Position numbers and translations under genes: made by a program | From: Enterobacter cloacae | Lineage (GTDB): Bacteria; Pseudomonadota; Gammaproteobacteria; Enterobacterales; Enterobacteriaceae | Assembly (NCBI GenBank): GCA_014169315.1 | Contig: AP022133.1 | Location: 1,798,001 to 1,862,000, forward strand | Length of the DNA: 64,000 nt | Direction of reading: 5' to 3' | The notes under the pieces: generated by a model | Database searches by the model: none | Seen by the model: only the letters and a program-made list of their open reading frames with translations | What the model was told of the DNA's origin: nothing | Part shown: piece by piece, positions 11,482 through 25,259 of the stretch | Numbering within the stretch: the stretch's first letter is position 1 | Layout of the letters: each line of letters opens with the position of its first letter

Positions 11482-11622
11482 AGATATTGCCGGTTTTTCC
11501 GCCAGAGTGTAGCTAACGTAAAAGACTGGCAAATTCCACGCGTTGTTTATACCGAAAAATCCCCCTGTATAGGGCCGTGCGCGGGTGCGGCCTCTGCTCA
11601 TCAGACCCTTTCACGCATCAAC

Positions 11623-11679
11623 AATTTCGATAGAGATATCGAAATTATCCATTAGAGCAGGGATGACAATTGCTCTAAT
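11623..11679. promoter_or_regulatory. Two adjacent perfect inverted repeats before region B
   Basis: In the 327-base gap 11482-11808, AATTTCGATA (11623-11632) pairs with 11637-11646 across 4 bases, and ATTAGAGCA (11651-11659) pairs with 11671-11679 across 11 bases. The second has the arm-N11-arm layout typical of LysR-type or similar dimer operators. Neither is followed by a T-run, so they are more likely operators than terminators. A GGAG ribosome binding site before the ATG at 11809 ends the gap. No other gene is visible in it. Confidence 0.5.
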
Positions 11680-11808
11680 AATACTAACAAGAATGTGGAG
11701 GACGTTATATCCATCATTTTAGTGTTTCACTGGTGTATCTGAGGGGGGGCCTGGATCACATTATGTGGAGCCTATGATAAAAGTAAAAATAATAATACGG
11801 AGCATTAA

Positions 11809-12591
11809 ATGTTTATCCGACCACTTAAATTAACTCAGCATGTCGACGTACAGGGACCTGAAAATGCGACGACATTGATACTTCTTCACTCCCTGGGAAC
11901 GGATTTGCACCTCTGGGATTTGCAGATGCCGCGATTAACCGAACGCTATCGTGTTGTCAGACTGGATATTCGGGGGCACGGGCTAAGTGCGGTCAATGCG
12001 TTACCGTTTTCAATGTCCGATCTGGCCGATGATGTTATCTCTGTGCTGGATCACCTGAAAATCAATACGTTTTATGTCGCCGGGGTCTCGATAGGTGGCA
12101 CGATAGCGCAATGGATCGGATTCAAATTGCCTGAACGGGTACTGGGTATGGTTATTATCGATACCTCACTGGTGAATGCCGCTCCACCTTCGGTATGGCG
12201 TGCGCGGGCGGAAGATGTTTTCCAGCATGGTCTTGAGCATCTTGAAAGGGGCATTATCAGCAATTGGGTTACGCCGAAATTTATCGACTCTCCCGAGGCT
12301 GATGGCCTAAGGCAGATGCTGCGTCGTACAACGGTTGAAGCTTTCTCTGGCTGTTCTTTAGCTATTGCCGATACTGATTTGACAAATATGCATATTCCCG
12401 GTGTCAGGGCCGTTGTGGTCAGAGGTGCAGAGGACAAACTGACGCCACAAGATTATGCGCAGCGTCTGGCGCAAAAGCGCAATGCAGAATTACATGTCAT
12501 TCCTGGTGCTTCTCATTTACCAAATTTCGAACAACCTGATGCGCTCACCGACGAAATTATTTCGTTTATCGAGAAGGTTAATACACATTGA
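11809..12591 (+). CDS. Alpha/beta hydrolase, 3-oxoadipate enol-lactonase-like
   Basis: 260 residues with an intact alpha/beta-hydrolase triad: nucleophile Ser94 in AGVSIGG, acid Asp in RGAEDKLTP, and His in PGASHLPNFEQP, plus the oxyanion region LLHSLGTDLHLW and DIRGHGLS. Overall wording is nearest the enol-lactonase (PcaD/CatD) branch, but no other protocatechuate or catechol gene is present, so substrate is unassigned; lactone or ester hydrolysis is likely. Cytoplasmic, no signal peptide. First gene of a five-gene plus-strand run; GGAG ribosome binding site. Confidence 0.85.
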   Translation: MFIRPLKLTQHVDVQGPENATTLILLHSLGTDLHLWDLQMPRLTERYRVVRLDIRGHGLSAVNALPFSMSDLADDVISVLDHLKINTFYVAGVSIGGTIAQWIGFKLPERVLGMVIIDTSLVNAAPPSVWRARAEDVFQHGLEHLERGIISNWVTPKFIDSPEADGLRQMLRRTTVEAFSGCSLAIADTDLTNMHIPGVRAVVVRGAEDKLTPQDYAQRLAQKRNAELHVIPGASHLPNFEQPDALTDEIISFIEKVNTH

Positions 12592-12685
12592 CGGTCATCA
12601 GAATCGATAAGGAGTGCATGAGCGCTGTTAATGAATAAATATAGCAGCGGGTGGAAATCCCTGTTGTGGGAATGGAGTCAATTAT

Positions 12686-13234
12686 ATGAATCGTCGGTTG
12701 TTTATCGGTGGATGCCTGGGTTTATGCACTGGTGCCGTAGTGCTTCCTGCTGCGTTGAGATGGTTAGATGTTCAAGGTGAAATCATTGAGATGGAACTGA
12801 ATAGCGGAACCGTAACGCTGCAATTATTTTCAGACGTTGCACCTAATCATGTAGCAAGAATAAAAACATTGGTGCAGTCATCATTTTATGAGGGTATACC
12901 ATTCTCCCGGGTTATTGAGGGGTTCATGGCGCAAACGGGTGACCCGGTAAGGAATACGGAGTTTGATCACAAATCATTACCTAAGCTGGCTGCGGAATTT
13001 AATAACCTACCGTTTGAACGCGGTACTCTCGGAATGGCGAGATCGAGAAATCCGCATAGTGCCTGCCATCAATTTTTTATCACCTCAACCAGAACCCATT
13101 TTTTGGATCAAAATTATACTGCATTCGGAAAAGTCATAAAAGGTATGGAATTGATTGACCAACTCCGTCGTGGTGATGCCGGGATCGGTACGGTTGTTAA
13201 TCCTGATGTTATAAAAAGAATGCGCCTAATTTAA
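12686..13234 (+). CDS. Cyclophilin-type peptidyl-prolyl isomerase with N-terminal export signal
   Basis: 182 residues. Residues 1-28 (MNRRLFIGGCLGLCTG...) carry twin arginines followed by a hydrophobic run, resembling a Tat signal or a signal anchor. The remainder is a cyclophilin: FSRVIEGFMAQTGDP holds the catalytic Arg and QTGD, then GMARSRNPHSACHQFFIT and FLDQNYTAFGKVIKGMELID. The Trp of the FLDGxxTVWG segment is replaced by Phe, as in many bacterial cyclophilins. It would act on proline bonds in the periplasm or at the membrane. Its presence among metabolic genes is odd. GGAG ribosome binding site. Confidence 0.85.
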   Translation: MNRRLFIGGCLGLCTGAVVLPAALRWLDVQGEIIEMELNSGTVTLQLFSDVAPNHVARIKTLVQSSFYEGIPFSRVIEGFMAQTGDPVRNTEFDHKSLPKLAAEFNNLPFERGTLGMARSRNPHSACHQFFITSTRTHFLDQNYTAFGKVIKGMELIDQLRRGDAGIGTVVNPDVIKRMRLI

Positions 13235-13287
13235 GGTTGGGGTGGTTTAATTACGTAATGATATTTATTCACAGGAGCTGACATCAA

Positions 13288-13614
13288 ATGCCCAGCATTG
13301 CTATTTATACATCTGCAAGTCACCGGATAGCTTCCAGTGCTTTTGCTGAGTTCTCAACTTCTTTAGCTAATCTGGCCATGGAAATTCTGAAAGCAAAAGA
13401 AAATAATATCCACATTAGCTATTTAACTACGGAGATAGGTTTTGGGACACCTGTTTATTTTGAGGCGAAACTCAGACAGGAAGTTTTTCGTAGCAAACCT
13501 GTAATGGATGAGTTTTTGCATCAGGTTGATATCTTAATTAAAGAAAAAATGGGCGTTGTGGCGAGAATTCGCTGTTTTCTTTACGACGCTGATAGTATTA
13601 GTGCTAAAAATTGA
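13288..13614 (+). CDS. Tautomerase-like small protein (Pro1)
   Basis: 108 residues starting MPSIAIYTS, so that removal of Met leaves an N-terminal proline, the general base of the 4-oxalocrotonate tautomerase/MIF fold. The order strand-helix-strand with VYFEAKLRQEVFRSKPVMDEFL matches the family in outline. Length sits between the 62-residue tautomerases and the 126-residue CHMI type. It would enolise or ketonise a 2-oxo or 2-hydroxy-enol intermediate. AGGAG ribosome binding site before the ATG. I place the family with moderate confidence; the substrate is unknown. Confidence 0.6.
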   Translation: MPSIAIYTSASHRIASSAFAEFSTSLANLAMEILKAKENNIHISYLTTEIGFGTPVYFEAKLRQEVFRSKPVMDEFLHQVDILIKEKMGVVARIRCFLYDADSISAKN

Positions 13615-13624
13615 AGGATAAATC

Positions 13625-14458
13625 ATGAGTGAAAAATTTCCATTGAAGAATCTTGGTGATGTCTCTGTCACCGCGGTAAGCGATGGCTATCTCCAGGTTG
13701 ATTTTGGACTGCTTGCAAATGTAGACGAGTCTGAGTGTAGACAAATTCAGGACAATGCCTGCATACGTGAGCATAATGCGGTTCATATTAATACTTTTCT
13801 GGTCCGACGGAAAGGGAAGAACATCCTGATCGATAGTGGTGCCGGTGGTATTAAGGGCTGGGGAGGTAACCTGGTTAACAATCTTGCTGAACTTGGGATC
13901 AAACCTGATGATATTGATGCAGTGCTGCTCACACATACCCACCCTGACCATATTGGTGGGTTGATAAACTCACAAGGAGAGGCCATTTTTCCTTTTGCGG
14001 AATTGCTGATCAGCGCTGATGAATTTAATTACATAGAAGATGATGAAAATTTTGAGTCTGTCAGCGATCGTGTTAAAGGTAATTTCCTTTTAGCGCGGAG
14101 TATATTCAAAAAGTATCAGAATAAAATTCGTTTAATTAATGAAGGTGAAATTTTACCTGGTATCTTTTCGATTCCATTAAAAGGCCATACACCTGGTCAT
14201 ACGGGATACAGAATAGAGGGTAGTAATGGGAATTTGTTAATTTGGGGCGATATTGTCCATTTTCCCCATATCCAATTATTAAAACCAGATGTATCGATAG
14301 CCTTCGATTCGGATCCACAATTGGCAGCAGAGACACGAGTCAGGATCCTTGATATCGTTAGCTCAGACAGGATCCTTGTTGGTGGAATGCATTTGGGGGA
14401 GCAAGGATTTAGCTATATAGAAAAACGCCAGTCAGGATACGGAATTGTCGATATTTAG
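13625..14458 (+). CDS. Metallo-beta-lactamase-fold hydrolase
   Basis: 277 residues. Metal ligands are clear: HTHPDH (His104, His106, Asp108, His109), HTPGH further on, WGDIVH, and a final GGMH. An N-terminal segment HINTFLVRRKGKNILIDSGAG is typical of the lactonase-type members such as AiiA-like N-acyl-homoserine lactonases, but I cannot exclude other hydrolases. Cytoplasmic; no signal peptide. Two zinc ions would be expected. AGGA ribosome binding site 10 bases after the preceding stop. Lactone opening would be chemically consistent with the other hydrolase in this operon. Confidence 0.85.
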   Translation: MSEKFPLKNLGDVSVTAVSDGYLQVDFGLLANVDESECRQIQDNACIREHNAVHINTFLVRRKGKNILIDSGAGGIKGWGGNLVNNLAELGIKPDDIDAVLLTHTHPDHIGGLINSQGEAIFPFAELLISADEFNYIEDDENFESVSDRVKGNFLLARSIFKKYQNKIRLINEGEILPGIFSIPLKGHTPGHTGYRIEGSNGNLLIWGDIVHFPHIQLLKPDVSIAFDSDPQLAAETRVRILDIVSSDRILVGGMHLGEQGFSYIEKRQSGYGIVDI

Positions 14459-14716
14459 CAATGAACAAAGTGGTGATTGCAGAATATAAATAAGTTCTCC
14501 GTGCGTTAGTTTTTTAACAGCCTGGTTTCTATTGATCCGGGAAGATATTGCTTTGCCGTTATTAATGTTTCATACCTGTAGTCTAATATTAGTTTGGAAA
14601 TAAATTGTCGATAAAAATACTATCTATAGGGGTGTGTAATGAATTTTGTAATAACCAGAAAAGTCAATGATGATGCTATTCACGGCGAAGCTAATAAAAT
14701 ATCGGGGAGGAACCCA

Positions 14717-15853
14717 ATGACTACAGGAGAGTTATCGTTGCGACCCAAATTGCCTTCGATCACCGGAAGTCGATTTTGGGCCGCTTTTTTAGTCTTTTTA
14801 TTTCATTCATCCCTGCCCAGCGATCTTGCTCCATTTGCAGACCCAACCATTCAGCATATTTATACGGTTATGGTTAGTAAGGCCGGATGGTTAGGGGTTT
14901 CATATTTCTTTATACTAAGCGGATTTATTATGGTGTGGTCAGCCAAAGATAGCGATACTGTCGGGGATTTTTACCTGCGGCGTTTTGCTAAAATCTACCC
15001 CACTCATTGTCTGACCTGGGCCATTGCATTTATAATTGGTGCAATTAGTATTTATCAGTATAAATTATGGTCATCAAATCTACTGTTGTTGAATACCTGG
15101 TTTGACGATGTGCGATACTTCTTTGTGGGCAACAGACCCAGTTGGTCTTTATGCATTGAAGCGATGTTTTATCTCTCTTTCCCATTCCTTTTTAGAATAA
15201 TGAAAGCCATACCTGAAAAGTATGATTTTCTGGGATTAATTGCTGTCACTGCAGCCTCCTTCCTGGTCCAAATGTCCATTTATAGCTGGGTTGAACCGAA
15301 TAAAATGATGGGGGCTTTTCCCATTTCCCAGCATCACTTCTGGATGTCATATATTTTCCCACCAGCACGAATTTTTGAGTTTCTGGCCGGTATGTTTGCT
15401 GCGCGATTGCTGATCAATGGACGGGAAATCATGCTGCCGAAAATTACCTCGCTTGCCTTACTTGTTGCAACATATATCGGATCTATGTATATCCCATTCC
15501 AGTTCAGTATGAGTGTTGTATTTATCATTCCAGTTTGTTTGTTAATTACTTCTCTTGCGGGTGATGATTTAAAAACCAGAAAGACGGTATTTAACCATAA
15601 TACATCGGTTTGGTTAGGTGAGATCTCCTATGCATTCTATATGGTACATTTTTTAGTGCTCTTCTATTTTTTGAATTTGACGGCGGGAAGGAAGTTTGAT
15701 CTGGTGGAAGGAGGGGGGCTTATTGTGGTTACGCTGATTCTGTCAATTGCCTGCGCGTCATTTGTGTACAAGTACTTTGAAGTACCGATGATGAAAATCA
15801 TTCTGGTGAAGTTCAGAACGAAAAAGTTGATCAGCATTCGCGAATCTTCGTAA
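14717..15853 (+). CDS. Membrane acyltransferase, family 3 (OafA-like)
   Basis: About 378 residues from the ATG at 14717, which follows a strong GGGGAGG site; an in-frame ATG at 14639 would add 26 residues without a good site. Hydrophobic segments throughout predict about ten membrane helices. The family signatures are SRFWAAFLVFLFHSS (catalytic His at the end of the first helix), YLRRFAKIYPTH, and later helices with SYAFYMVHF. Acyltransferase-3 proteins move acetyl or other acyl groups onto sugars or small molecules at the inner membrane; they also occur in antibiotic gene clusters. The gap upstream (14459-14716) is AT-rich and may hold its own promoter. Confidence 0.85.
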   Translation: MTTGELSLRPKLPSITGSRFWAAFLVFLFHSSLPSDLAPFADPTIQHIYTVMVSKAGWLGVSYFFILSGFIMVWSAKDSDTVGDFYLRRFAKIYPTHCLTWAIAFIIGAISIYQYKLWSSNLLLLNTWFDDVRYFFVGNRPSWSLCIEAMFYLSFPFLFRIMKAIPEKYDFLGLIAVTAASFLVQMSIYSWVEPNKMMGAFPISQHHFWMSYIFPPARIFEFLAGMFAARLLINGREIMLPKITSLALLVATYIGSMYIPFQFSMSVVFIIPVCLLITSLAGDDLKTRKTVFNHNTSVWLGEISYAFYMVHFLVLFYFLNLTAGRKFDLVEGGGLIVVTLILSIACASFVYKYFEVPMMKIILVKFRTKKLISIRESS

Positions 15854-15918
15854 CACCGGAAATGCACTGCTACCAGGGCATTGCCTCATCAAAGCACGAG
15901 GTGGCTTCCGTTCATCCG

Positions 15919-15953
15919 GTGGGAGGGCATGCGTTAAGTAGATGCTCTCCCAC
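15919..15953 (+). terminator. Probable terminator after the first region B operon
   Basis: GTGGGAGGGCAT (15919-15930) pairs with ATGCTCTCCCAC (15942-15953) with one mismatch around an 11-base loop, followed by a short TCTTTA. It lies 66 bases after the acyltransferase stop and ends the plus-strand run before the LysR gene on the other strand. The short T-run makes it a weaker terminator. Confidence 0.5.
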
Positions 15954-16088
15954 TCTTTACTGCTTAATCAGTAAGAAACCTGAAACCTTTTATCGGCTCC
16001 TCCATAAACGACACGGTATCTCCGTTTAGTGAATTTTATCAATAGTGCTCCTGATGAAAGGATACCGTGTAATGCCTGTACAAGTATG

Positions 16089-16976
16089 CTAGTAGCCGAC
16101 ATCGCGCAGCCGTGGGTCCTGAAAGACGGAAGCCACCATATCTGTAAATTTGGCGCTATCCAGATAGGCACAGTCTGTTCGGGATAAAAGCTCTATTTTG
16201 AAATCATTGAACTGGCCGGATAGCTGATGAATTTTTATCTTGCTCTTTACTTCACCACTGATCGAGCAACGCAATACGAGCGACACTCCTTTACCAGCGG
16301 CAATGCTTGAAAACAGCACAGGATAGGATCCACATTCAACCACGCGTTTTGGTGTGATATTTCCTTCATCGAAGAGCACATTGAAATTGCGCGTTGAAGT
16401 TGCACATTTTTTGCTACTAAGCAAAAAAACCTCGCCATCCAGACTGGATATATCGGTTATACGAGGATGACTTTTCTCAGTAATAATCACCAATTCACTG
16501 GAGAGTAATAGGGTTCGCGCATGTTGTGCATTGGAAAAACCGGCACCGATGATTACCGCATCGAACTCATTTTTATCGAAGGCGCTGAGTAAACTTATTG
16601 TATTTCCTATAGAAATGTCGATATTCCAGCCTAGATCCTGGCCTAAATCGATCAATGAACTAATAATATAGGGAGGTAAGCATTCAATTATCCCAACCCT
16701 AATGGTCAACTGACTGTTTTTAGAGTAGGAGATGTTGTTTTTGCAATCATCCGCGAGGTTAAGAATTTTTAGCGCATACTCATAAAGTATCTGGCCTTGC
16801 GCAGTAGGTGAGCACCCGTCTGTTCTTCTGTCTAAAAGGATGACATCAAGGTTATCCTCCAGGCTCCGTATTCGGTGGGAGATGCTGGATTGCACTCGAT
16901 TCAGGCGCTCTGCGGCTTGGGTTATATTCCCTGTCTCCACGACTGTCACGAAGGCAAGAAGTTCACTTATCTTCAT
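16089..16976 (-). CDS. LysR-family regulator (region B)
   Basis: 295 residues from the ATG at 16976, which has GAGG 6 bases upstream; the in-frame ATG at 16988 lacks a site. Residues 1-60 are the winged helix (FVTVVETGNITQAAERLNRVQSSISHRIRSLE), the rest an effector domain (LTIRVGIIECLPPYIISS). It diverges from the PrpD-like gene across a 568-base gap, the classical arrangement for a LysR regulator controlling its neighbour. Likely control of the second region B operon, possibly also the first. The inducer is unknown, presumably a pathway metabolite. Confidence 0.85.
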   Translation of the reverse strand: MKISELLAFVTVVETGNITQAAERLNRVQSSISHRIRSLEDNLDVILLDRRTDGCSPTAQGQILYEYALKILNLADDCKNNISYSKNSQLTIRVGIIECLPPYIISSLIDLGQDLGWNIDISIGNTISLLSAFDKNEFDAVIIGAGFSNAQHARTLLLSSELVIITEKSHPRITDISSLDGEVFLLSSKKCATSTRNFNVLFDEGNITPKRVVECGSYPVLFSSIAAGKGVSLVLRCSISGEVKSKIKIHQLSGQFNDFKIELLSRTDCAYLDSAKFTDMVASVFQDPRLRDVGY

Positions 16977-17544
16977 TTGAGACCTCATGCTGAAAGTTAA
17001 CTCATTGTTTCGATAATGTTTATAATTTATGGCAATGAGTTTGTCACTATGTTTCTAATCCAAAATGTTGAACGAACAAAAATTGGGAGGGGTGGTTGAA
17101 ATTTAATCACTTATTCCTGTCGTCACCCAAAAATCCAGTATAAATAATGATATGTTTATCAATTGCTTACTGATGAGATTGTGCAGAGTTCCACAGTGTC
17201 TCCCTCCTTGTTGGCTTGCAATGAATGTTGTCGGAACGTTTTTACAGAGACGGTTTGGCATTAATCCACATATTTCTTTTTAATATCCTGCGCGCTTTAA
17301 AATCCTATTGTATCGACTACTCACACCATAATACGGCGGGGTATCAATCTTTTCGATGTATACCTCGATTTTATTCGCTGGTTTTTTATTGCCATGCAAA
17401 TTACGATTTTATGTGTGAGGCCTGGATTTTTACTTTGCACTTGTAGATCAACTGGTTATCTAATTATTTATATGCAAATTTATGCCTTCCCTGGCCTTCA
17501 TTATTCGTATTAGTGAAAAATTCTTTTCGTATATGGGATAAAAT
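16977..17544. other. Long AT-rich divergent intergenic region between LysR and PrpD-like genes
   Basis: 568 bases with low GC compared with the flanking core genome. Scattered AT-rich hexamers suit sigma-70 promoters, but I could not pick a clear pair. A 73-codon open frame at 17225-17446 shows no coding character. The region is long enough for LysR binding sites and for H-NS silencing, a common fate of transferred AT-rich DNA. No small RNA or strong hairpin was seen. Confidence 0.4.
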
Positions 17545-18972
17545 ATGGCGCACGCTGAGTTTGATAAAATAATGATCGAGCTGGTTGACTATGCTTATGA
17601 GCAAGCAACCTTTGATAATGAGACGCTCCGCCTGGCGCGTTTTTGTCTGCTGGATTCGATAGGGTGTGCGATTGCTGCCTCTACTGATTCTGATTGTTCC
17701 AGGCTGATGCGCAGTGTGCAATTCAGTAAAAACAGCCAGGGTGTACCTGTAGTGGGCACCGCACTACGCCTGGGGCCGATCGAAGCGGCGTTTCAGATCG
17801 GCTCAATGATCCGCTGGCTTGAGTTTAACGATACATGGCTTGCGCAAGAATGGGGGCATCCATCCGATAACCTGGGGGCTATTCTGGCTGCTGCGGCGTG
17901 GCGTAGTCTCTCCGATAGTCATCAGTCGGCTGTCAATATGGCTGCCGTACTGAACATGATGATTCGTGCTTATGAAATTCATGGTGTACTGTGCCTGTCT
18001 AACTGTTTTAATGCGCTGGGCATTGATCACGTCGTGTTGGTCAAGGTGGCCTCTGCAATCGCTGCTGCCCAGATTCTGGGGTTATCAAAGGATCAAGCGC
18101 TCAGCGCACTGTCCAATGTGATTATCGATGGCCATTCTCTTAGAACCTATCGACATGCGCCAAATGCGGGGACACGTAAATCATGGGCTGCTGGAGATGC
18201 AACGGCACGTGGCCTGCAGTTTGCGCTGTTTGCGCAAACTGGTGAGATGGGATATCCAACGGCACTCACAGCCAGTCGCTGGGGATTTGATGATGCGGTA
18301 CTGAGAGGACAACCGTTCAATCTGACGCGTAATTTATCAGATTTTGTCATCCAGAATATCCTGTTCAAAGTTCCCAATCCTGCTGAATATCATGCCCAGA
18401 CCGCAGTTGAGGTGGCTATTTGCCTTCGTAAGCGGATAATAGATGAAGGTTATTCCCCTGAGAGTATCGAATATGTTCGTGTGGAAACCACACGTCCAGC
18501 GATTCAAATTATTGATAAATCTGGTGCACTGAATAATTCTGCCGATCGCGATCACTGTCTCCAGTACATGATTGCTGTGGGGCTTCAAACCGGAAATCTG
18601 ACCATTAAGGATTTTCATGAACCGCTTGCTTCAGATCCCCGACTGGAGGCGTTACGCCAGAAAATTACCTGCACTGAACGTCCCTCTTTTACCGAAAGCT
18701 ACTACGACCCGGAGAAACGCGCGATCCCGAATGCGCTCTATATCAAGTGTCATGGGATGGCGGAAGAAATATCGGCACTTATCGAATATCCGCTCGGTCA
18801 TGTCCGTCGTCGTGAAGAATGTTTCGACGCACTTCTGACGAAATTCCATCTAAATCTTTCTGACAGCCCGCTGCGTGATAGGGCGGATAGTCTGGCCGAG
18901 ACCCTGACGTCAGGGGCGAAGCTGGATGATATGCCCGTCATTGACTTCCTGAAAATGTTTTCATGGGATTAA
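17545..18972 (+). CDS. MmgE/PrpD-family protein, 2-methylcitrate dehydratase-like
   Basis: 475 residues, close to the 483 of E. coli PrpD. Characteristic stretches: FNDTWLAQEWGHPSDNLG (about residues 94-111), SNCFNALGIDHVVLVKVAS, AGTRKSWAAGDATARG, and PAEYHAQTAVEVA. Family enzymes dehydrate 2-methylcitrate, decarboxylate cis-aconitate or epimerise iminodisuccinate. prpB, prpC and acnD are not nearby, so the propionate pathway itself is not the context. Substrate therefore uncertain; a tricarboxylate or methylcitrate-like acid is the best guess. A 16-base gap separates it from the GAPDH-like gene, so they form an operon. Ribosome binding site weak. Confidence 0.85.
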   Translation: MAHAEFDKIMIELVDYAYEQATFDNETLRLARFCLLDSIGCAIAASTDSDCSRLMRSVQFSKNSQGVPVVGTALRLGPIEAAFQIGSMIRWLEFNDTWLAQEWGHPSDNLGAILAAAAWRSLSDSHQSAVNMAAVLNMMIRAYEIHGVLCLSNCFNALGIDHVVLVKVASAIAAAQILGLSKDQALSALSNVIIDGHSLRTYRHAPNAGTRKSWAAGDATARGLQFALFAQTGEMGYPTALTASRWGFDDAVLRGQPFNLTRNLSDFVIQNILFKVPNPAEYHAQTAVEVAICLRKRIIDEGYSPESIEYVRVETTRPAIQIIDKSGALNNSADRDHCLQYMIAVGLQTGNLTIKDFHEPLASDPRLEALRQKITCTERPSFTESYYDPEKRAIPNALYIKCHGMAEEISALIEYPLGHVRRREECFDALLTKFHLNLSDSPLRDRADSLAETLTSGAKLDDMPVIDFLKMFSWD

Positions 18973-19021
18973 GTTCTTCTCAACATATTTGCGTAAATTC
19001 ATAGGGTTAAAGGTGATTGAA

Positions 19022-20164
19022 GTGAAAAAGGCAATACTGGTTGGCTGTGGTGCTGAGATTGGTGCAAACCTGTTGATTCAGAACGATCCGCAGCAGGATG
19101 GTTTCGCGATTCAGACCGTTGTAACGAATCCACCTTCTGTCGATAAACATTATCCAGAGCTGCGTCCGATTGACGGCATTGTGGCTCGTCTGGCTATGGC
19201 ACATCCCGGTATACAATCCCGGGTCAGCATTATCAACAGTGAAACCCTGCTAGTTGACGGTCGTGAAATTCATTTCTTCTTTGGCGATTTAGCTAAAGGG
19301 GGACCGCTGGTCGAAGGGCGTTTTGATATTGGGTTTATCGCGACCAGCAAACAGGATATGGATCTGAACAGCCCTGTGGCCAGAAATATGCTGGAGCTGG
19401 CCGACGTTGTGTTGGGTGTTGCTGAGGCAGATAGCCTGCCAAGTATCTACGGTTGTCTGGGAGATCTGACCCGCGACGATATTAGCACGATACAACGCCA
19501 GGTCGTTCAATCCGGCATGTACTGTTTGGGATCCTGCCAGACCAATGGTATGCATGCTTCATTGCGTGTTGTGAGCGGCGCACTCAGCGCCATTAATTGC
19601 AACACTTCTCATATTGTGGCGGTTGAAACCGATATTGTGCATCCTGACACGCCCAATGGCGTGCTTGGTACTCGATCGTTTGAGGGACGAATGCAGGATG
19701 CGCGTGACAATCTCCGTCCTGGTTTTTCCCAAATTGCGATGAGCCAGAAAAAAGTAATGCCGTGGGCACCGCTGGTAAATACCGTATCGCTACGTGCCCC
19801 AGTTCATGCGCCAGGATATCAGATAAACCGCTTTATCGTTAAAGATAATGGCGCGTTAAGCATCAGTCTCATTGAAGAGGCTATTGAGCGTGTAAGCAAA
19901 GCGCATCCTCATATTGTCATGGGCTCCAGGACACCTCTGGGGGGACGGGCTTATGCCTATGAACGCCGGTGCTCAACAATTCTCTCTGACCCGAATCATT
20001 TGCTAATTCTCCGCCCTGCGTATCTGGCAAACCAAAATCTGAGTGAAGTCATCATCCAGTCATTTGTTAACAATACGGTCGGTTATACGGCTGTTGTTCG
20101 GGACGTAGCACGCAATATTGCGCAGGGACTACCCGTTGCCACTTTTTTGGGGATTGAGAAATGA
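19022..20164 (+). CDS. GAPDH-like dehydrogenase
   Basis: 380 residues from a GTG at 19022 preceded by AAAGG at 8 bases; a TTG at 18989 is the alternative. The N-terminus KKAILVGCGAEIGANLL is a nucleotide-binding turn. GSCQTNGMHASLRVVSGA carries the catalytic Cys172 in the SCxTN setting of glyceraldehyde-3-phosphate dehydrogenase, and the later D.R.NLRPGFSQIA and VNTVSLRAPV match its C-terminal domain. It diverges from the true glycolytic enzyme in the NAD turn and in the loop before the Cys, so the substrate is probably a different phosphorylated aldehyde or acyl phosphate. Its stop overlaps the next gene's ATG (ATGA). Confidence 0.75.
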   Translation: MKKAILVGCGAEIGANLLIQNDPQQDGFAIQTVVTNPPSVDKHYPELRPIDGIVARLAMAHPGIQSRVSIINSETLLVDGREIHFFFGDLAKGGPLVEGRFDIGFIATSKQDMDLNSPVARNMLELADVVLGVAEADSLPSIYGCLGDLTRDDISTIQRQVVQSGMYCLGSCQTNGMHASLRVVSGALSAINCNTSHIVAVETDIVHPDTPNGVLGTRSFEGRMQDARDNLRPGFSQIAMSQKKVMPWAPLVNTVSLRAPVHAPGYQINRFIVKDNGALSISLIEEAIERVSKAHPHIVMGSRTPLGGRAYAYERRCSTILSDPNHLLILRPAYLANQNLSEVIIQSFVNNTVGYTAVVRDVARNIAQGLPVATFLGIEK

Positions 20165-21141
20165 CAAGTTCACATACCGTTGATTTTTTGAGCTCTGGTT
20201 TTGTCGTGAAGACCGCGAGGTCTGAAGCTTTTAATGGAAAACTAAAAGCTGAAGTCGAGCAGATACAAGCATTATACGAAATCTATCCTGAACTTATGGT
20301 TCCGGTTTTGCACGACGGGCTGGCCGCCGGTCGGCAATTCTATGTTCTTGAAAAGAAAAACTCACTCCCGTTATCCAACATCGTGTTTGATGAGCGGCGA
20401 TCGCTGGCAGAGCGGCGGAGAATTGTTCAGTCTGCGCTGGAAAATATACAAAAGGCCATCAGCCTTGAAATCGATAGCCATTCTGCGTTGGCGAACGATA
20501 TGCCAGCCCGATTGATGGAGGAGTGGGAAGGTACGCGTTTTGCGCACGATCTCTTTAATAAATCGGTTTTGCTCAATGGCACTCGCTTCAATATCTCTGC
20601 CAGAGAGGTCTTTGAAAAATCGCTGGAAATGGCCAGGAGCGAAGCATTTCGTTCGGTTGAAAAGGCGCATTTCAACTTTCATTTTGGTAACGTGCTCTAC
20701 AACGAAGAACGTTCTCAGACCAGCTTTATTGACCCTGATTTTTCTGTCCGTGGTCTCGATCCGCTTTTCGGTTTTTCCCGGTTTGCATTTTCGTTTTGGC
20801 ATGAACTGGCAGCCGAGGTTGAAGATGCAGTCAAAATAGTACCGATGTCAGATGAACTTATGTTTGTTCTGGCGAAACAAGACTACGGCAATATTCTGAG
20901 TGAAATCCCGGAAATAGGGGGGATTTCAGGCCTGATTCCGCTGATGGGCGAGAGTATGCGTAATCGGTTTTATGTTCTCACGACCTACTGTTTCCTCAGG
21001 AGTATCCGTATAAACGGGAGTAAACAGGACTGGAAAGCACCACGTTCTCCCGTGATCGCCCGACCTGAAGAGGTACTTATGTTGGGCATGCTGGCTTACC
21101 TCGAAGGAGCTGGCGTTGAGAGCGAAAGTCTTTGCGCGTAA
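20161..21141 (+). CDS. Aminoglycoside-phosphotransferase-like protein with altered catalytic motif
   Basis: 326 residues. The pattern AHFNFHFGNVLYN, then SFIDPDFSVRGLDPLFGFSRF, corresponds to the HGDxxxxN and metal-binding IDxD motifs of the APH/choline kinase fold. The usual catalytic Asp of HGD is Asn172 and the Gly is Phe171, while the metal Asp191 is kept. It may be a kinase with altered chemistry or an inactive relative. The N-lobe has VVKTARSEAF for a possible ATP Lys. It overlaps the GAPDH-like gene by 4 bases, suggesting joint function: the kinase product would be a natural substrate for a GAPDH-like enzyme, though this is inference. Confidence 0.65.
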   Translation: MTSSHTVDFLSSGFVVKTARSEAFNGKLKAEVEQIQALYEIYPELMVPVLHDGLAAGRQFYVLEKKNSLPLSNIVFDERRSLAERRRIVQSALENIQKAISLEIDSHSALANDMPARLMEEWEGTRFAHDLFNKSVLLNGTRFNISAREVFEKSLEMARSEAFRSVEKAHFNFHFGNVLYNEERSQTSFIDPDFSVRGLDPLFGFSRFAFSFWHELAAEVEDAVKIVPMSDELMFVLAKQDYGNILSEIPEIGGISGLIPLMGESMRNRFYVLTTYCFLRSIRINGSKQDWKAPRSPVIARPEEVLMLGMLAYLEGAGVESESLCA

Positions 21142-21168
21142 TTTCATTCCAATACAGGACCTGAGGAT

Positions 21169-22554
21169 ATGTCGTTGGTAAGCGTTAGCAGTACCTTAGA
21201 ACAAGGGTTTGAGACGCCAAGGCGCTATTTGGCTGCTGCGGCTATTTTGATAGGCGTTCTGATGGCGTCGTTGGACAGTTCCATTGTCAATATTGCTTTG
21301 CCCTCTATTGCCAGTGCATTACAGGTAGATTCGGCCTCCAGTATCTGGATTACCAACGGCTATCAGGTTGCCAGCGCTGCGACGATGCTGATTTGCGCAT
21401 CGCTGGGAACAAGGATAGGGGAGCGACGTTTCTACACGGCCGGGATGGTGTTGTTCACTCTGTCTTCGCTGGGCTGTAGCCTTTCGCCGACCTTTGGCGT
21501 ACTGGTTGCCATGCGCGTACTCCAGGGGGTGAGTTATGCGGTGATGATAAGCGTTGGATTAGGTCTGTATCGGGTGATCTTTCCACCCAATGCGCTGGGA
21601 ACGATATTTGGACTGAATGCACTGGTATTCGCGGTAGGCACGGCCATTGGTCCTGCGTTGGGTGGTTTGATCATCTCTTACCTGTCCTGGCCCTGGCTGT
21701 TCTATATCAATATCCCGTTGGGAGGACTTGCTGTTGTGTTCTCGCTTATCTCCCTGGGGGAAGATACCGAAAAAGAGAAGGGCTTCGACTGGCGTGGGGC
21801 GATTAGCTCAGCGGCAGCATTAGGTTTGATGGTTATTGCTGTTGATCAAATTGGACGCTGGGAGAATAGCACGCTGATATTTTGCGCTGTTGCGTCTGTC
21901 GTGCTGTTTGCCATCTTTTTAAAAGCCCAGAGGAGTTCCAGGAACCCATTATTGCCGCTTGATATATTTCGTTCCAGGCAATACAGCTTTGCGGTGCTCT
22001 CTTCTGTTTCCATGTTTGTCGCGCAGGGGATGGCACTGGTCGGCTTACCCTTTGTGTTGCAGCATACTTATCACTACTCCGTACTGGAATCCGCATACAT
22101 CTTTACACCGTGGCCAGTTGCCGTGGCGTTCTGCGCCCCGCTTGCGGGCAGGCTATCAAACCGTTTCAATCCGACCCAGATATCCACGGTTGGTGTGATG
22201 GTCTTTTGCCTTGGCTTAGGCTCACTGGCTTTGTTGCCGGAAGCCGCGACGGTGGGGGATTTTCTGTGGCGCGTGGCGGTTTGCGGCATTGGTTATGGTT
22301 TCTTCCTTCCGCCAAACAACAAGGAAATGTTTTCAAATGTCGCGGCAAACCGAACGGTAACGGCCTCGGGAGTACTGTCAACCGCCAGAACTGCAGGGCA
22401 ATCTATTGGTGCAGCGTTGGTTGCGATGATAATTGCATTGTTGAATGGATTAACAGGGCACGCGGGCGCGCAGTTTGCCGTCTATGTGTTTGGCGTGGCC
22501 TGTGCTATATCGGCTATATCGTCTCTTGCCAGTACGTTACGTCTGCACCGGTAA
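21169..22554 (+). CDS. MFS transporter, DHA2 type (14 helices)
   Basis: 461 residues with about 14 hydrophobic segments. The N-terminal MASLDSSIVNIALPSIAS is the DHA2 motif D1 and AVGTAIGPALGGLI (motif C) is the antiporter signature GxxxGPxxGG. EmrB/QacA relatives export hydrophobic or charged compounds by proton antiport, which suggests that the operon's product leaves the cell or that the gene gives self-protection. GAGG ribosome binding site 27 bases after the kinase-like gene. It is the last gene of region B, before the tRNA-Asn gene. Confidence 0.85.
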   Translation: MSLVSVSSTLEQGFETPRRYLAAAAILIGVLMASLDSSIVNIALPSIASALQVDSASSIWITNGYQVASAATMLICASLGTRIGERRFYTAGMVLFTLSSLGCSLSPTFGVLVAMRVLQGVSYAVMISVGLGLYRVIFPPNALGTIFGLNALVFAVGTAIGPALGGLIISYLSWPWLFYINIPLGGLAVVFSLISLGEDTEKEKGFDWRGAISSAAALGLMVIAVDQIGRWENSTLIFCAVASVVLFAIFLKAQRSSRNPLLPLDIFRSRQYSFAVLSSVSMFVAQGMALVGLPFVLQHTYHYSVLESAYIFTPWPVAVAFCAPLAGRLSNRFNPTQISTVGVMVFCLGLGSLALLPEAATVGDFLWRVAVCGIGYGFFLPPNNKEMFSNVAANRTVTASGVLSTARTAGQSIGAALVAMIIALLNGLTGHAGAQFAVYVFGVACAISAISSLASTLRLHR

Positions 22555-22683
22555 GTGATTGAGGGGATCTGTGCTTTATGTCAACAGCTGGTCAATGTCG
22601 TTCGGCTGCTGACACGTTGGTCTCAATATGCGTGCGGGCAGATTGCTATGTCAGATGCGATGGAGATGAAACGCAGAAAAGCA

Positions 22684-22717: not shown

Positions 22718-22793
22718 TGGCTCCTCTGACTGGACTCGAACCAGTGACATACGGATTAACAGTCCGCCGTTCTACCGACTGAACTACAGAGGA
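22718..22793 (-). tRNA. tRNA-Asn (GUU)
   Basis: 76 bases on the minus strand with a complete cloverleaf: acceptor TCCTCTG, GTTCAGTCGGTAGA D-arm, anticodon GTT (plus-strand AAC, 22758-22760), GGTTCGAGTCC T-arm, and encoded CCA. It is identical in sequence to the second copy at 25184-25259. E. coli has four asn tRNA genes in this neighbourhood. It is a plausible site for the arrival of region B, though I saw no integrase and no repeat of the tRNA 3' end near erfK. Confidence 0.97.
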
Positions 22794-25183: not shown

Positions 25184-25259
25184 TGGCTCCTCTGACTGGA
25201 CTCGAACCAGTGACATACGGATTAACAGTCCGCCGTTCTACCGACTGAACTACAGAGGA
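25184..25259 (-). tRNA. tRNA-Asn (GUU), second copy
   Basis: 76 bases, identical to the gene at 22718-22793, including CCA. The flanks on the downstream side (AAATTTGGC) and upstream side (AATCGTGTGAAC) are also shared, so nac and cbl sit between direct repeats of about 100 bases. Anticodon GTT. Confidence 0.97.

Follow-up and report, generated by a model that had tools for sequence, protein, structure and literature searches.

Between erfK and a tRNA-Asn gene of Enterobacter cloacae lies a set of ten genes, here called g1–g10, and the question it raises is whether these genes build a compound or break one down. The set was studied within a 64,000-nucleotide stretch (contig AP022133.1, positions 1,798,001 to 1,862,000 of the forward strand), hereafter the window. 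An initial annotation, made from the letters alone, had described two plus-strand operons at positions 11,809–22,554 with a LysR gene between them, and had weighed a specialised-metabolite cluster against catabolism. All ten open reading frames (ORFs) are confirmed at that place and are intact, and the first reading is favoured over the second. The locus is a cluster of foreign origin that brings along a regulator and an exporter; taken as a whole, the earlier interpretation is partly supported. The locus shows the features by which specialised-metabolite clusters are recognised, namely enzymes that stay together across hosts, an operator common to both operons, a regulator and an exporter. 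That it specifies a specialised metabolite plus its exporter is probable. That it is, more narrowly, a horizontally acquired, shared-operator cluster making and exporting a small tricarboxylate-derived metabolite is a proposal to which we give even chances, and the route suggested below, from citrate to an aldehyde, is tentative, with substrate, chemistry and product all putative.

The genes lie in an inserted island that spans positions 11,482–22,671 (no strand assigned; borders approximate to about 100 bp) and is missing at the same site in other genomes of the genus. Specifically, in the window 11.2 kb separates erfK from the tRNA-Asn gene (22,718–22,793, minus strand) that bounds the insertion site on the right, whereas in two same-genus genomes (L049 and L050) the site is empty, with 145–150 bp in place of the island, followed by nac-cbl. 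In a third (L048), the tRNA-Asn gene lies near erfK, and the stretch read there is without nac-cbl. In two further relatives (L051 and L052), erfK and the tRNA gene lie about 3 and 5 kb apart, with none of the island genes between them, and because this is other DNA on the erfK side, the site looks like an insertion hotspot. The comparison covers five of six same-genus genomes, the sixth (G525) having no erfK match of that quality. The GC content of the insertion is 0.456, against 0.532 in the remainder of the window, and the lowest value among 305 overlapping stretches of the same length elsewhere in the window is 0.507, bearing out the earlier remark that the region is AT-richer. The intergenic gaps, 94, 53, 10 and 180 bp within g1–g5 and 49, −4 and 27 bp within g7–g10, suit two operons, the second being the tighter.

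The Kosakonia island likewise ends at a tRNA-Asn gene and the Erwinia island at a tRNA-Phe gene, and no tRNA gene adjoining the island was found at the remaining loci. In the window, two tRNA-Asn genes (22,718–22,793 and 25,184–25,259) flank nac-cbl. Integration through duplication of the tRNA 3′ end was considered and rejected, since the left edge carries no copy of the tRNA end. Four pairs of direct repeats of 17–19 nt were found, none of which spans both borders, and Pfam detects no integrase among the ten island proteins. Scans for promoters and terminators were near chance (18 found versus 22.5, and 16 found versus 11.8).

A pattern scan of a collection of 84,980 species revealed at least 11 loci, a lower bound because the scan requires exact peptides. 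All ten genes occur in the same order in five of them: Cedecea davisae, Kosakonia oryziphila, Xenorhabdus thuongxuanensis (with an additional ORF between g5 and g6), Serratia inhibens and Rahnella rivi. Erwinia sp. 198 also has all ten, with g1–g6 inverted. Identity to the window across these six other genera is 69–93%, and dN/dS is about 0.04–0.17 in 27 comparisons (nine genes, g6 left out, against three genera). Because the content recurs in six other genera at such identity and dN/dS is low, the cluster is more than a chance assembly. The Rahnella perminowiae locus opens at a contig end with g7, while Telmatospirillum has all genes except g6, rearranged and at 35–67% identity. Marinomonas carries g6–g10, Pseudomonas sp. 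SDI carries g7–g10, and Microvirga carries g7–g9 with just 1.6 kb of contig upstream; g1–g5 were not found in the whole 35-kb Pseudomonas contig or within about 25 kb to either side of the Marinomonas core. The portable core is PrpD, the GAPDH-fold protein, the APH-fold protein and the DHA2 exporter.

The spread of the island is best explained by horizontal transfer. In genome samples that were evenly drawn, overlap, and each contain the window's own genome, g8 is found in 3 of 295 genomes at the level of the family, and in one genome each at the levels of order, class and phylum, out of 394, 369 and 398. Eight of the ten proteins of Xenorhabdus, a member of the Morganellaceae, are closer to those of the window than are the proteins of Kosakonia, which belongs to the Enterobacteriaceae as the window does; the exceptions are g6 (90.0% in Xenorhabdus versus 92.0% in Kosakonia) and g8 (87.1% versus 87.4%). 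Between Kosakonia and the window, identity is 89% for nac and 88% for cbl. The host genera occur in people, insects, plants and soil. Protein searches gave at least 162 members of the g8 family. Among the matches listed are also Klebsiella aerogenes, Erwinia persicina, Burkholderia gladioli and Burkholderia ubonensis, Gilliamella, Acidithiobacillus, Rubrivivax and others. No g8 relative was found on viral contigs, and none of the second g8 clade in phages; plasmids yielded one g8 relative, at 30% identity, and neither g9 nor second-clade g9. No near match to the island was found in 5,426 Escherichia coli genomes. A genome of another genus (G014) holds a decayed island, L067, comprising 38 residues of g1, g3 with a stop codon, g4, g6 and 28 residues of g9.

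A LysR-type operator is common to both operons. By aligning the regions upstream of g1 and g7, we derived the palindromic motif TTTCGATN7TCGAWWTTAT, which matches exactly upstream of g1 (11,625–11,648, plus strand) and, in a second conserved copy, upstream of g7 (17,351–17,374, plus strand); the window contains these two exact copies and one overlapping reverse copy with one mismatch. With up to two mismatches allowed, chance alone would give 0.05 matches per window, and a count of three was reached in none of 100 shuffles. Both boxes are present in all eight islands in which both upstream regions could be compared, namely the window, the islands of the six other genera (L002–L007) and the decayed L067. 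They are kept in Erwinia, where operon 1 is inverted, and the second box is kept in L067 despite the loss of g7. The upstream sequence of one locus, L008, is too short for the comparison, and no exact copy was found in the four non-enterobacterial loci (L009–L012). The LysR-family regulator g6 (16,089–16,988, minus strand; PF00126 and PF03466) lies between the two operons, and the palindrome together with the linkage suggests that g6 binds the boxes, so that a single regulator would apparently control the whole block.

The second operon begins with g7 (17,545–18,972, plus strand), which the curated models identify as a true PrpD, a 2-methylcitrate/citrate dehydratase. It scores 586.7 bits against PRK09425 (cut-off 575) and 517.3 bits against TIGR02330 (cut-off 458), and its alignment with E. 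coli PrpD (1szq, 5.8e-192) spans almost the full length. In contrast to E. coli PrpD, g7 has no other methylcitrate-cycle gene in its cluster: neither methylcitrate synthase nor lyase was found among the ten island proteins, the lyase having been sought among island genes only. Methylcitrate synthase exceeds the TIGR01800 cut-off in just three of the 12 hosts (Xenorhabdus, Marinomonas and Pseudomonas), although all 12 match the model below or over the cut-off, as expected from ordinary citrate synthases; in a control, 9 of 14 known genomes, given as a count without names, exceeded the cut-off, and some host genomes are draft assemblies with no completeness stated. A second high-scoring PrpD is present in Xenorhabdus and Marinomonas alone, and Microvirga has two weak matches (about 1e-6). 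Nine of the 12 hosts therefore have neither a methylcitrate synthase over the cut-off nor a second high-scoring PrpD.

According to the available part of PMC9468356, wild-type E. coli PrpD is promiscuous for citrate, with a 12-fold lower efficiency than AcnB, and its Table 2 gives kcat/Km values of 159 for citrate and 0.075 for 2-methylcitrate per mM and second. Because nine hosts have neither enzyme at these score levels and the E. coli enzyme accepts citrate, we favour citrate as the substrate of g7, short of proof. The same text lists W110, G111 and I331 as lining the methyl pocket of E. coli PrpD; in g7 the corresponding residues, mapped from the 1szq alignment, are W103, G104 and I322, and they are identical in 12 of 12 sequences.

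Downstream of g7, the protein g8 (19,022–20,164, plus strand; start GTG at 19,022 or in-frame GTG at 19,013) is a GAPDH-fold dehydrogenase of an unnamed family, and g9 (20,161–21,141, plus strand) has an APH/maltokinase fold. The initial annotation had called them GAPDH-like and APH-like, which holds by predicted fold, while no curated sequence model passes its cut-off for either. For g8, the predicted GAPDH fold covers nearly the whole chain, the catalytic Cys, Cys183, is kept, and an Asn aligns within the NNTVGY/DNETGY stretch; g8 differs from GAPDH in being longer and in having its own conserved HPDTP and RPSFSQ-like signatures. No sequence model at all, of GAPDH or otherwise, matched g8 in Pfam (E up to 10) or NCBIfam (E 0.001), and a profile search of the PDB (E up to 1) gave no match either. 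For g9, the predicted fold and the ATP-site residues resemble those of APH/maltokinase-type kinases; in Pfam (E up to 10), APH reaches 14.4 bits, below its cut-off of 23.2, alongside two unrelated models, and nothing matches at E 0.001. The last gene, g10 (21,169–22,554, plus strand), encodes a DHA2/EmrB-type MFS exporter, with 251.5 bits against TIGR00711 (cut-off 230.2). Its description as a 14-helix exporter stands as to the family, while a crude hydropathy scan did not separate the helices and the count was not reproduced; the number 14 presumably follows from DHA2 membership. The other families proposed for the island, alpha/beta hydrolase, cyclophilin, MBL hydrolase, Acyl_transf_3, LysR and PrpD, were, like the DHA2/EmrB transporter, recovered with Pfam and NCBIfam.

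In g9, HxNxHxxN replaces the HxD...N motif of APH/maltokinase-type kinases in every aligned homologue: the catalytic Asp is Asn in 29 of 29 sequences (the window and 28 of the 44 found), and in 11 of 11 across two clades. A kinase fold so altered could be a true pseudokinase, serving as a scaffold or allosteric partner of g8, or could catalyse a different reaction, for instance adenylyl transfer or amide ligation; SelO and SidJ are kinase folds with such divergent chemistry. The replacement in all aligned homologues speaks for this explanation. Lys17, Glu31, Asn177 and Asp191, which we read as ATP- and metal-site residues, are nevertheless invariant in the aligned homologues, and nucleotide binding is therefore probably kept, which leaves a pseudokinase on the unlikely side.

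The g8/g9 pair also occurs outside the island. In a genome of Telmatospirillum's order (L029, 494–11,064), adjacent relatives of g8 and g9, at 34.5 and 37% local identity, stand beside a cytidylyltransferase, two Gfo/Idh oxidoreductases, a radical SAM protein, a HAD hydrolase, a methyltransferase, an SDR and a 530-aa protein without a Pfam family, which is a sugar-type setting; the search of that order had matched g8 in 2 of 199 genomes, one being Telmatospirillum itself. In addition, 18 of the 44 g9 records have the same longest-contig size as one of 120 listed g8 records, as have three of the seven second-clade g9 records (141817, 39765 and 36542), and the equal sizes suggest, short of proof, that g8 and g9 share a contig. 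In Microvirga (L012), a StrB1/SxtG-type amidinotransferase (387–1520; 1.3e-134 to 1bwd, with no Pfam match at E 0.01) lies directly upstream of the PrpD-GAPDH-APH core, which points to specialised metabolism and to product diversity. A second cluster type surrounds a distant g8 relative on a Pantoea alhagi plasmid (L015; NZ_CP019707.1, 5625–14,999), with genes for a LysR protein, a 4-oxalocrotonate tautomerase, an EamA transporter, a g1-like hydrolase (41%), an IS3 transposase, a YrdC-like protein, the GAPDH-fold protein, a PEP-binding protein and, at 172 aa, a member of the protein X family described below; no g9 relative was found there beside this third g8 relative.

In the proposed route, g7 would convert citrate to free cis-aconitate, beyond the reach of the tricarboxylic acid (TCA) cycle; g9 would use ATP to activate one carboxylate; and g8 would use NAD(P)H to reduce the acyl phosphate (or adenylate) to an aldehyde through a Cys thioester. 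Kinase/GAPDH-fold pairs that carry out such reductions are ArgB/ArgC and LysC/Asd of the Arg and Asp-family pathways. The fixed Asp-to-Asn change of g9 would be explained, because a carboxylate is already anionic and needs no catalytic base; we suggest that a kinase with such an acceptor could do without its Asp. The aldehyde could close to a hydroxybutenolide, g5 may acylate the product, the enol-lactonase-, tautomerase- and lactonase-like proteins g1, g3 and g4 may tailor it or protect the host, and g10 would export it. A biosynthetic cluster of this kind is supported by the occurrence of the ten-gene set in six other genera, by the shared operator in eight of eight islands and by an exporter over its subfamily cut-off. 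It is further supported by a core that reaches Telmatospirillum and Microvirga, in the latter beside the StrB1-like amidinotransferase, by the adjacency of g8 and g9 in L029 as well, by the invariant Asn of g9 and, as regards citrate, by the host survey and the kinetics of E. coli PrpD given above.

Several points weigh against this proposal. The methyl pocket of g7 is unchanged in 12 of 12 sequences, so that the sequence gives no preference for citrate over 2-methylcitrate, and the Xenorhabdus, Marinomonas and Pseudomonas hosts do carry methylcitrate synthase. At the sequence level g8 is weakly related to GAPDH, with 13–20% identity in fold alignments and an hhalign probability of 72.6, and g9, as an Asp-to-Asn kinase fold, may be catalytically dead. 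The core occurs without operon 1 in two hosts, Pseudomonas and Marinomonas. Finally, the enzymes of operon 1 look catabolic, and g3 relatives adjoin a CitMHS-type transporter in two genomes.

This last point calls for a closer view of operon 1. Its first product, g1 (11,809–12,591, plus strand), is an enol-lactonase-like alpha/beta hydrolase related to PcaD, scoring 213.4 bits against the 3-oxoadipate enol-lactonase equivalog, below the cut-off of 255.85. The 108-aa protein g3 (13,288–13,614, plus strand) is a candidate Pro1 tautomerase-like protein; it has no Pfam match at E up to 10, none in NCBIfam at E 0.001 and no sequence match in the PDB, and its invariant positions in 10 aligned sequences include Pro2 (the first residue after Met), Arg93, Arg95, Cys96 and Asn108. 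The MBL-fold, lactonase-like hydrolase g4 (13,625–14,458, plus strand) has an HTHPDH motif and scores 218.2 bits against the AidB lactonase equivalog, below the cut-off of 360. The remaining members are g5 (14,639–15,853, plus strand), a membrane O-acyltransferase (Acyl_transf_3; PF01757, 2e-25), and g2 (12,686–13,234, plus strand), a cyclophilin-type prolyl isomerase (PF00160, 1.1e-38) whose hydrophobic N-terminal 30 residues are probably an export signal. Such a cyclophilin, probably exported, is present in every intact island with operon 1 (the window, L002–L007 and L009). A P450 gene in Cedecea (L002, 14,095–15,330) was set aside as lying outside the conserved gene set.

Relatives of g3 occur in 17 of 293 family genomes: three with g8, the decayed island of G014, and 13 others, one of them weak. 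We read seven of these 13 loci. In five, from other Enterobacteriaceae (L068–L072), genes for a LysR protein, a protein X, a g3-type protein (31–33% identical to the window's) and an AidB-like lactonase (43–50% identical to g4) stand together, with the core genes not present; protein X has 176–179 aa and no family, and a 47% identical counterpart lies beside the P. alhagi g8-relative cluster. In the other two (L073, 5530–8188, and L074, 5056–7817), a g3-type protein, an esterase-like protein and a transporter lie beside a LysR gene, the transporter being CitMHS by Pfam in L073 and by likeness in L074, a partner that gives a weak hint of a citrate-like substrate. All seven look like small degrading or protecting operons, and we therefore read g1, g3 and g4 as tailoring the product or as self-protection against a lactone or enol product.

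The same loci lend substance to a different explanation, in which the island is catabolic or detoxifying, its enzymes break down an aconitate-, lactone- or enol-type compound encountered in soil or plants, and the transported molecule of the MFS protein is the substrate or a by-product. The LysR gene, the enol-lactonase-, tautomerase- and lactonase-like enzymes, and the small LysR operons, whether they pair g3 and g4 relatives without the core or join a g3 relative to an esterase-like protein and a transporter of the CitMHS type, are all in its favour. However, the sole transporter found among the ten proteins belongs to an exporter subfamily, a pair that would consume ATP and NAD(P)H is costly for catabolism, and a StrB1-like amidinotransferase adjoins the Microvirga core; we regard this explanation as unlikely. 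An operon 1 that degrades the island's own product fits both the biosynthetic and the catabolic views.

We consider it less likely still that the operons are independent, one degrading lactones and the other biosynthetic, and that they share the hotspot and the regulator but have no pathway in common. The initial annotation had held that its reading would fail if the two operons occurred separately, and in part they do: operon 2 stands without operon 1 in Pseudomonas and Marinomonas, and relatives of g3 and g4 (31–50% identity) stand without operon 2 in other Enterobacteriaceae. Because each occurs without the other, the operons are separable modules. Against their independence, the same operator motif lies at both, they are still side by side after rearrangement in Erwinia and Telmatospirillum, and the decayed island of G014 retains pieces of both. 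In the Enterobacterales islands of this survey the operons are neighbours with a common operator, so the description as one cluster holds there. Least probable of these explanations is that 2-methylcitrate is the substrate of g7 and that the island deals with intermediates of the methylcitrate cycle. In its favour, g7 exceeds both PrpD equivalog cut-offs with its methyl pocket kept, and three of the 12 hosts have a methylcitrate synthase over the cut-off; against it, the ten genes include no other methylcitrate-cycle gene and the other nine hosts have no such synthase.

Returning to the biosynthetic proposal, we compared the island with known systems. The tbr operon of Bacillus thuringiensis (trans-aconitate biosynthesis and export, in the part of PMC11495376 available) is likewise a small cluster that turns a TCA acid into a secreted compound through an enzyme and an MFS exporter; it consists of aconitate isomerase and exporter genes, whereas the island has PrpD, a dehydrogenase-/kinase-fold pair and a second operon. 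The PrpD engineered for itaconate in E. coli, as described in the available part of PMC9468356, forms free cis-aconitate from citrate apart from aconitase, and the island may do likewise; the W110V/G111T/I331L changes reported there are not present in g7, and none of the ten genes is named a cis-aconitate decarboxylase. The Pantoea clusters PNP-1 to PNP-5 (PMC11350110 and PMC7744662, main texts) are also antimicrobial gene clusters of enterobacteria and likewise small, with 6 to 14 genes. As a match they were rejected, since PrpD, methylcitrate, glyceraldehyde and MFS are absent from those main texts, although the eight-gene PNP-3, compared by these texts alone, may still be the same cluster. 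A literature search of titles and abstract openings, with the primary description of PNP-3 outside the comparison, returned no description of this gene set, in agreement with the initial annotation, which knew of none.

The island combines known enzyme superfamilies in a set that had no counterpart in this literature search, and g8 and g9 pass no Pfam or NCBIfam cut-off. We put forward, as a speculative possibility, that g8 and g9 form a new class of two-component ATP-dependent carboxylate reductase, in which a base-less APH-fold carboxylate kinase would hand an acyl phosphate to a GAPDH-fold reductase. The pair would then serve in two settings or more, one being a cluster for a tricarboxylate-derived metabolite and another the sugar-type cluster of L029, with PrpD naturally drawing cis-aconitate from the TCA cycle. 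Rule-based cluster finders may miss clusters without polyketide synthase, nonribosomal peptide synthetase or RiPP (ribosomally synthesised and post-translationally modified peptide) parts, and the island, if this is true, would represent a class of small-molecule clusters built without any of them. The operator motif and the two protein families, g8 and g9, ease recognition of the cluster elsewhere. The g9 family would test whether kinase folds that act on carboxylates drop their catalytic Asp, and the island would provide a natural example of a reaction, PrpD acting on citrate, that engineers built as 'unnatural' (PMC9468356, in the part available).

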